DNA of 42,239 nt from Alphaproteobacteria bacterium (lineage in GTDB: Bacteria > Pseudomonadota > Alphaproteobacteria > Bin95), in contig JAJEIH010000053.1 in assembly GCA_022827685.1 (NCBI GenBank), positions 64,056 through 106,294 on the forward strand, written 5' to 3'. A program made the translations under genes and the position numbers. The notes beneath the pieces are model-generated. The model searched no databases. It saw nothing but the letters and a program-made list of their open reading frames with translations, and was not told where the DNA came from. This document shows, piece by piece, positions 32,003 through 33,689 of this stretch; the first letter of the stretch is position 1; each line of letters opens with the position of its first letter.

Positions 32003-32533
32003 ATGATCGCCATCGACGCGATGCGGGACAGCGACTGGCCCGAGGTCCGCGCCATCTACCGCGCGGGTCTCCGCACGGGCATCGCCGCCTTCATGAAGAA
32101 CCCGCCGAGCTGGAAGGCATGGAACAAGGGCCATCTGGCTGTCGGGCGGCTGGTCGTGCGCGGCGGCGACGGCCGCGCCGTCGGCTGGGCGGCGCTGACG
32201 CCGGCGCCGGATACGTGAGGCGCTGCCGGTGTCGCTGAGGTCAGCGTCTATGTCGGCGAAAGCGCGAAAGGATCGGGAGCCGGGACGGCCCTGCTGGAAG
32301 GCCTGATCGCGGCCTCCGAGGCGGAGGGTTACTGGACGCTCCAGGCGCAGATCATGGCGGCCAACGGGCCCAGCATCGCGCTCCACCGGAAATGCGGCTT
32401 CCGCGAGGTCGGCCGCCGGGAGCGCTACGGGCATCTCGACGGCGTCTGGCACGATGTCTTCCTGTTCGAGCGCCGCAGCGTCCGCACCGGCGGACCCGGC
32501 CTGCCGACACGGACCTGCGACGCGGCAGGATAG
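32003..32533 (+). CDS. GNAT N-acetyltransferase selenoprotein (in-frame TGA)
   Basis: Read through a TGA at codon 72 (32216-32218), this gene encodes 176 residues of a complete GNAT acetyltransferase of the phosphinothricin/methionine-sulfoximine type. Before the TGA it has AIDAMRDSDWPEVRAIYRAG and GWAALTPAPDT. After it come GVAEVSVYV (beta-4), the acetyl-CoA loop ESAKGSGAGTALLEGLI, LHRKCGFREVG and GVWHDVFLFERRS. Neither half alone is a viable enzyme. From memory, relatives have an RCVYAGVAEVSVY sequence, and the Sec aligns with that Cys. A strong hairpin lies 21 nt after the TGA. I do not recall Sec-containing members of this branch. The start ATG 32003 lacks a good ribosome site. It is divergent from imuA and followed by another Sec gene. 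Confidence 0.8.
32231..32248 (+). promoter_or_regulatory. Candidate SECIS hairpin (GNAT gene)
   Basis: A perfect 5-bp stem (CGCUG, 32233-32237, with CAGCG, 32242-32246) closes an AGGU loop. One more G-C pair lies beyond a U-U mismatch. The loop GG is 21 nt after the TGA. Size, position and G/U-containing loop agree with bacterial SECIS elements recognised by SelB. Confidence 0.75.
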
Positions 32534-32599: not shown

Positions 32600-33082
32600 A
32601 TGGGCGAGAAGCTGGGTATCGGCGCCGCGTTTCCGGCCCTTTCGCTGAACCTGCTGGACCGGGGGCCGGCGGAGGTGCCCGCCGACATGCCGGGCGCCTG
32701 GAAGGTGGTGCTGTTCTACCGCGGCCACTGGTGACCCTATTGCCGCCGTCAGTTGGACGGCTTCCAGGAATTATGGCCGGAGTTCGAGGCGCGCGGCGTC
32801 TCCATCCTCGCCGGCAGCGTGGATGATGAGGACAATGCCCGCAAGCTGGCGGACGGGAAGAGCTTTCCCTTCGCCTGGGGCATGACGCGCGCGGACGGAG
32901 ACCGGGTCGGGGCCTGGTGGGAGGAGCGCCGCCAGATCGTGCAGCCCTCCGAGTTCATCCTCGACGGCAATGGCACGGTCGAGGTGTCCAGCTACAGCGA
33001 CGGCCCCCTCGGCCGCATGGACGCCGCCGACGCGCTCAAGCTGATCGACCTCTATGAGTCGCGGAGAAAGGCCGAGGGCTGA
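32600..33082 (+). CDS. Peroxiredoxin-like (AhpC/TSA-redoxin) selenoprotein, UxxC
   Basis: This gene encodes 160 residues with a TGA at codon 45 (32732-32734). Around it the protein reads FYRGHW-U-PYCRRQL, where I recall relatives having FYRGHWCPYCRRQL. Sec therefore replaces the first Cys of a CxxC active site. The thioredoxin fold continues with FQELWPEFEARGVSILAGS, a FPFAWGMTRADGD segment and PSEFILDGNGTVE. The start ATG 32600 follows GGAGAGGG; an in-frame ATG at 32582 is a less likely alternative. The protein probably reduces peroxides or disulphides in the cytoplasm. It follows the Sec-GNAT gene by 66 nt on the same strand. Conventional callers would begin at 32753 and lose the active site. 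Confidence 0.9.
32745..32761 (+). promoter_or_regulatory. Candidate SECIS hairpin (peroxiredoxin-like gene)
   Basis: A perfect 6-bp stem (GCCGUC, 32745-32750, with GACGGC, 32756-32761) closes an AGUUG loop. The loop GU is about 18 nt after the TGA. The stem is GC-rich and the loop starts like that of the other two candidates. It is the strongest of the three. Confidence 0.8.
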
Positions 33083-33164: not shown

Positions 33165-33689
33165 TTACCCGCGCTCCGCCTGCCTCCGCCGCCAGTCTCG
33201 CGGGTCGAAAGCTACATCATGGCCCCAGAGGCCGCGCCTTTCCCGGCGGGCTTCGTTCTCGACGTCCTTGTAGCGGTCTCCATAGGCGGCGATGGCGTGG
33301 CCGTTGCGGACGAGCCAGGCGCCCACATCCTTGCCGCCACAGGTTACGCGGCCCAGCACGCGGCCATGCCGGTCGGTCCCTTCCACGGATACCTCGACCT
33401 GCCGGCCGCCGACCGTGCGGATGAGCGCACGCTTGACCCGTTTGCCGTGTTTGAACCAGGTGCCGTCGCGGTGTTTGGCCCACTGGTCCAGCTCCGGGGC
33501 GTCGAGACCGGAGAAGCGGATCCTGTGGCCGGAGACCCGGAGGCTGTCGCCATCCGTCACCCATGCCTTGCCGGCGATGACGCTGCCGGCTTCCGGTGCT
33601 GGCGGGCGCCGCCTGCGGCCGGGCGGGCGCCGGCGCCGCTGCCTGAGGAGCCGGAAGGCGGCGCGGACAAGGACGGCAAGAAGTTCCAT
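33165..33689 (-). CDS. Thermonuclease family (SNase-like) protein, N-terminally anchored
   Basis: This 174-residue protein has a basic, hydrophobic N-terminus (residues 1-35, Arg-rich after a short LLAVLV run), possibly a signal anchor or export signal. An SNase domain follows. The catalytic set is visible: [24 protein letters not shown] with Arg and Asp, KRALI, and [11 protein letters not shown] with the second Arg. Staphylococcal-type nucleases are calcium-dependent and cleave DNA and RNA, usually outside the cell or in the periplasm. A GLWGHD near the C-terminus matches the family. It converges on the peroxiredoxin-like selenoprotein gene. Confidence 0.88.

Follow-up and report, generated by a model that had tools for sequence, protein, structure and literature searches.

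Predicted selenocysteine in a peroxiredoxin-like UxxC protein and in a neighbouring GNAT acetyltransferase-like protein of an alphaproteobacterium

The window, by which we mean the whole 42,239-nucleotide stretch of DNA analysed here, corresponds to G000:C89:64056-106294 of a 4.3 Mb alphaproteobacterial draft genome in 167 contigs. Two neighbouring genes on its forward strand each carry an in-frame TGA. The downstream gene, at 32600-33082, encodes a peroxiredoxin (Prx)-like protein of the AhpC/TSA family (PF00578) which is 160 residues long if the TGA at codon 45 (32732-32734) is read as selenocysteine (Sec), and the codon is followed by a candidate SECIS hairpin at 32745-32761 (GCCGUC-AGUUG-GACGGC, with its loop at 32751-32755). 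The upstream gene, at 32003-32533, encodes a GNAT N-acetyltransferase of the ArsN1/phosphinothricin-acetyltransferase-like kind, with 176 residues, a TGA at codon 72 (32216-32218; PDTUGA when translated with Sec), a SECIS-like hairpin at 32233-32246 (CGCUG-AGGU-CAGCG) and a Cys at codon 172 (32516-32518) within the C-terminal tail GGPxLPTxxC. It ends 66 bp upstream of the Prx-like gene. On the far side of the pair, by reading of the translations, are a small staphylococcal-nuclease-type ORF on the reverse strand (33165-33689) and a methionine synthase-like gene on the forward strand from 33811 onward.

The TGA at codon 45 is the sole internal stop of the Prx-like frame, which terminates at another TGA (33080-33082). 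Its context, FYRGHW-U-PYCRRQL, makes the predicted Sec the first residue of a CxxC-like motif (UPYC) in an AhpC/TSA-like protein, just as a sequence-only reading of this DNA had proposed. A lone TGA in an otherwise open frame does resemble a point error, and the codon might be a true stop in a pseudogene or a misread sequence. Against this, the same TGA is kept in 28/28 other homologues that range from 96% down to 40% identity, and in all of them coding continues past it, with protein conservation beyond codon 45 running to residues 132-139. The GTDB collection gave the same picture, as each of the 21 relatives whose match covers codon 45 keeps the TGA (21/21), and a search of 289 genomes of the class returned 13 genes, the window gene included, with one TGA each. 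Because both the TGA and the frame beyond it are conserved, the true-stop explanation is already refuted, and we assign it a negligible probability. More distant relatives found by profile search have Cys at the Sec position (FHRGSWCPYC in L081, and CPxC in many), so that the two marks by which bacterial selenoproteins are recognised, a UGA conserved with coding conservation on both sides and Cys homologues aligned at the UGA, are both found here.

The hairpin requires a more careful argument. It has the perfect 6-bp stem and AGUUG loop that had been described for it, although the earlier distance of about 18 nt from the TGA was slightly off: the stem begins 10 nt and the loop 16 nt past the TGA. 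It had also been called a strong SECIS hairpin, and as far as strength in the single sequence goes this did not hold. Folding of 51 nt gave z = -0.54, with 63/200 shuffles equally stable, and a hairpin of like quality follows 169/833 TGA trinucleotides in the window (~20%). With shuffles performing as well and like hairpins after about a fifth of all TGAs, we rejected hairpin strength in the window sequence as evidence for Sec; taken by itself, the window hairpin is not above chance, which is the other point that could be made for a true stop. What rises above chance, as judged from the aligned relatives, is conservation rather than the window hairpin by itself.

That conservation takes several forms. 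In the alignment of 28 homologues besides the window gene (extra copies in this set are probably the same genes reached through two collections), 97.9% of stem cells are paired, as compared with 11-56% in slid controls. The stem also changes on both sides at once, with G-C replaced by A-U at columns 17/27 and U-A replaced by A-U or G-U at columns 18/26, and the exceptions are few, namely one mismatch in two homologues and an A-G at pair 15/29 in one. RNAalifold run on the homologues recovers the identical stem unaided. At the codon level, codons 48-55 hold the lowest synonymous variation among all 7-codon windows of the gene: Arg49 is CGC in 26/26, Gln51 is CAG in 26/26 and Leu52 is TTG or TTA in 26/26, while Leu elsewhere in the gene is mostly CTN. 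A conserved hairpin, a loop 16 nt past the UGA and a G within the first two loop bases together agree with the bSECIS description, and it is in this sense, by conservation, that the element qualifies as a bacterial-type SECIS. Rfam at its gathering threshold gave no match at the hairpin, as would be expected if the Rfam models omit this element. The two outcomes that the sequence-only reading had named as fatal to itself, a TGA that is a stop or absent in close relatives and a hairpin that is not conserved, were looked for and did not materialise.

The genome is equipped to decode such a codon, and this too speaks against a true stop. It contains a tRNA-Sec (72.6 bits, with ARAGORN concurring: SeC, anticodon TCA), adjoining selA (537.7 bits) and selB (435 bits) genes on contig C112, and selD (275 bits), so that SelA, SelB, SelD and tRNA-Sec are all present. 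The selD match (L069, G000:C140:44569-45453) lies within a 748-codon open frame with no internal stop, and it is therefore probable that this SelD is fused to another domain; Ndh-SelD fusions have been described (PMC2398784). We considered whether FdhA could be the reason for Sec retention in this genome and rejected it, as the formate dehydrogenase alpha subunit matches have no internal stop. Across genomes, the form of the Prx-like gene follows the presence of tRNA-Sec, which was found in 13/13 genomes with the Sec form and in 0/19 tested with the Cys form, a split that again is at odds with a true stop. In three genomes a tRNA-Sec gene lies ~0.1-1.5 kb from the Prx-like gene (L023, 3582-3676; L066, 2034-2128; L067, 11-106).

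UGA is the leakiest of the stop codons, and one might therefore suppose that codon 45 is read as another amino acid such as Trp, by ordinary read-through or through a changed genetic code. However, TGA is also the codon at which the window gene and several of its homologues terminate, the relatives carry Cys rather than Trp at position 45, and insertion of another residue would leave both the hairpin and the association with tRNA-Sec unexplained; we regard it as highly improbable. Sec decoding at codon 45 is strongly supported by the conservation of codon, frame and hairpin.

What the protein does with its Sec is a question of fold and motif. The read-through protein matches Pfam AhpC-TSA (PF00578) with 68.1 bits, and an AF2 model computed from an input alignment of 18 Sec-form sequences has a pLDDT of 90.4 and a peroxiredoxin fold, for which 604 PDB matches were returned at E<=0.001, the closest folds being peroxiredoxins. 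In the model, a helix spanning residues 46-57 starts directly after Sec45. When aligned to solved peroxiredoxins, Cys48 corresponds to the peroxidatic Cys and Sec45 to the Thr/Ser of (S/T)xxC, three residues earlier, and the active-site Pro, Thr/Ser and Arg of peroxiredoxins correspond to Arg41, Sec45 and Pro116. The PxxxTxxC motif and Arg of a true peroxiredoxin are thus not found, as Arg41, Sec45 and Pro116 stand at the catalytic positions, whereas the combination that defines the Prx-like UxxC family, a PF00578 domain with UxxC in place of TxxU, is. On the predicted model, the protein combines a Prx fold with a UxxC site of thioredoxin-like type.

A redox role follows most likely from the fold and the motif together. 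Since the catalytic Thr and Arg of peroxiredoxins have been replaced by Sec and Pro, the protein is most likely a thioredoxin-like oxidoreductase or a peroxide reductase, and its conserved residues fit a thiol oxidoreductase and a peroxidase alike. It could instead be a true peroxiredoxin that happens to be decoded with Sec, in which catalysis falls to Cys48 as the nucleophile, with Sec45 merely modulating it, as the alignment of Cys48 with the peroxidatic Cys and the peroxiredoxins among the closest PDB folds would suggest. This we consider unlikely, as the Pro, Thr/Ser and Arg of the peroxiredoxin site are all replaced and a UxxC placed where a helix begins resembles thioredoxin. Under the reading that we prefer, the hairpin 10 nt downstream would direct the SelA/SelB/SelC/SelD system to insert Sec at UGA codon 45; Sec45, in the UPYC motif before the active-site helix, would act as the attacking selenolate on a disulfide or peroxide substrate; Cys48 would resolve the intermediate by forming an Se-S bond with it; and re-reduction of the Sec45/Cys48 pair would then fall to a thioredoxin or glutathione system. 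The substrate and the reductant in this scheme are putative. Taken as a whole, a Prx-fold selenoprotein in which UGA45 is decoded as Sec through SelA/SelB/SelC/SelD and the hairpin, and which uses Sec45 and Cys48 for redox chemistry, appears to us very probable indeed.

The GNAT gene makes a comparable case by a somewhat different route. Its product matches Acetyltransf_1 (48 bits) and the NCBIfam model for ArsN1 family A (112.9 bits), the latter falling below the model's curated cut-off of 170. Six species of the same genus have the TGA, the window genome counted, and searches of the class genomes brought the total to 14 genomes in five families, with 64-99% identity and the TGA in 14/14 (the window gene at 32003-32533 and the alphaproteobacterial loci L041-L045, L071, L072 and L116-L121). 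Codons 77-82 (GTC GCT GAG GTC AGC GTC), which span most of the hairpin, show zero synonymous change in 14/14 and are the minimum of 166 six-codon windows in a gene whose mean is 0.34; the stem itself is invariant in 14/14, and hence no covariation signal is possible. The tail GGPxLPTxxC is present in every Sec-GNAT, with Cys172 in 14/14, and absent from non-Sec relatives and paralogues. At the Sec72 position non-Sec relatives have Pro, Arg, Glu, Lys or Gln, and in one case Cys: L123, of genome G278, reads SGRCVYQGVAE there and is without the Sec-GNAT tail. A tRNA-Sec is present in the Sec-GNAT genomes G107, G197 and G290, and none was found at E 1e-10 in G001 (L042; 75% complete) and G004 (L045), where draft gaps may be the cause. 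Reading of codon 72 as Sec is strongly supported by the conserved TGA and its surroundings, and the earlier proposal of a Sec-GNAT beside the Prx-like gene is supported by TGA and hairpin in 14 genomes.

It is natural to ask if the two genes work together. They had been described as a two-gene selenoprotein locus, which fits the window and one close relative, L018/L041, the only places among the loci read where the genes adjoin, but adjacency is not conserved and gives no evidence of an operon or a shared function. One could imagine a single functional operon in which, for example, the Prx-like protein reduces an oxidised Sec-GNAT: the spacing of 66 bp on one strand and the recurrence of the pair in L018/L041 are compatible with it, and the invariant extra Cys172 of the Sec-GNATs could form an Se-S bond. 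Yet the flanks retrieved for four other Sec-GNATs of the same genus (L042-L045) contain no Prx-like gene, the two genes are on different contigs in G197 and G290, and in L017, L019 and L020 no GNAT lies near the Prx-like gene. Because adjacency is not kept across genomes, we rejected a general Prx-like/GNAT operon; joint function is unsupported, and we think it improbable that the two form one functional unit.

Of the two genes it is the Sec-GNAT that matters more, and it is the one that would be unexpected to a specialist. Predicted selenoproteins mostly have thiol-redox folds or carry redox motifs. The Sec-GNAT seems to represent an unlisted family of selenoproteins, spread over five alphaproteobacterial families, which we put forward as probably the first of its kind on the grounds that no acetyltransferase appears in a 2026 review table of 119 selenoprotein families (PMC13188914), that a 2022 selenoprotein review does not mention one, that no matching model in NCBIfam release 20 names an acetyltransferase selenoprotein, and that full-text literature searches found none. 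Its closest known counterparts are the ArsN1/phosphinothricin N-acetyltransferases, with which it shares the GNAT fold (ArsN1 family A being the best match), and a VAEVSVYV stretch whose Glu aligns near the general base. It differs in a score below the ArsN1 cut-off, in lacking five residues in a later loop and in having the C-terminal tail with Cys172. In PpArsN1, Arg75-Arg77 are gate residues that reach the site of the partner subunit (PMC6465285), and the alignment would place Sec72 in the loop just after the corresponding positions. An AF2 model of the GNAT, built from two sequences, had a pLDDT of 44 and was left unused. It is possible that Cys172 is the partner of Sec72, and the chemistry may be that of a redox-switched acetyltransferase or, alternatively, that of a GNAT turned to selenium redox or metalloid chemistry. 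We think it reasonably probable that this is the first recognised acetyltransferase-fold selenoprotein family, with Sec72 in a gate loop, where it could form a selenenylsulfide with Cys172, in a redox-switched GNAT or one engaged in selenium redox or metalloid chemistry. A conserved Sec with a matching Cys tail in an acetyltransferase raises the question of what role selenium might have in acyl transfer or its regulation.

The Prx-like protein, by comparison, belongs with a known kind of selenoprotein, and the original identification of it as such was right. As early as 2005 a Prx-like family with UXXC in place of TXXU was described from the Sargasso Sea (PMC1088965), the GOS 'Prx-like 1' family (PF00578, UxxC) comprised 225 selenoprotein sequences (PMC2398784), and the 2026 review has an entry for a 'Prx-like thiol:disulfide oxidoreductase' with PF00578 and UxxC (PMC13188914). 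The window gene fits this published definition, being matched by definition and not by alignment to representatives: it shares the PF00578 fold, UxxC for TxxU, Sec at the first position and the existence of Cys homologues, and several of its relatives come from marine metagenomes. Its subfamily carries the blocks FYRGHWUPYC, WWEERRQ and SYSDGPLGR, which a comparison with the published families by description ties to no named one, and no NCBIfam model scored above its own cut-off for the protein. With PrxU (TxxU) it shares the fold superfamily and a Sec in the active site, but its Sec takes the place of the catalytic Thr and not the peroxidatic position, the peroxiredoxin Pro and Arg are replaced, and its score against the PrxU model is 17.6 bits for a cut-off of 270. 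A gene caller that reads UGA only as a stop would truncate such a gene. What the Prx-like gene adds to a known kind of selenoprotein is a well-supported and apparently Sec-only clade, in which the split between Sec and Cys forms follows tRNA-Sec.
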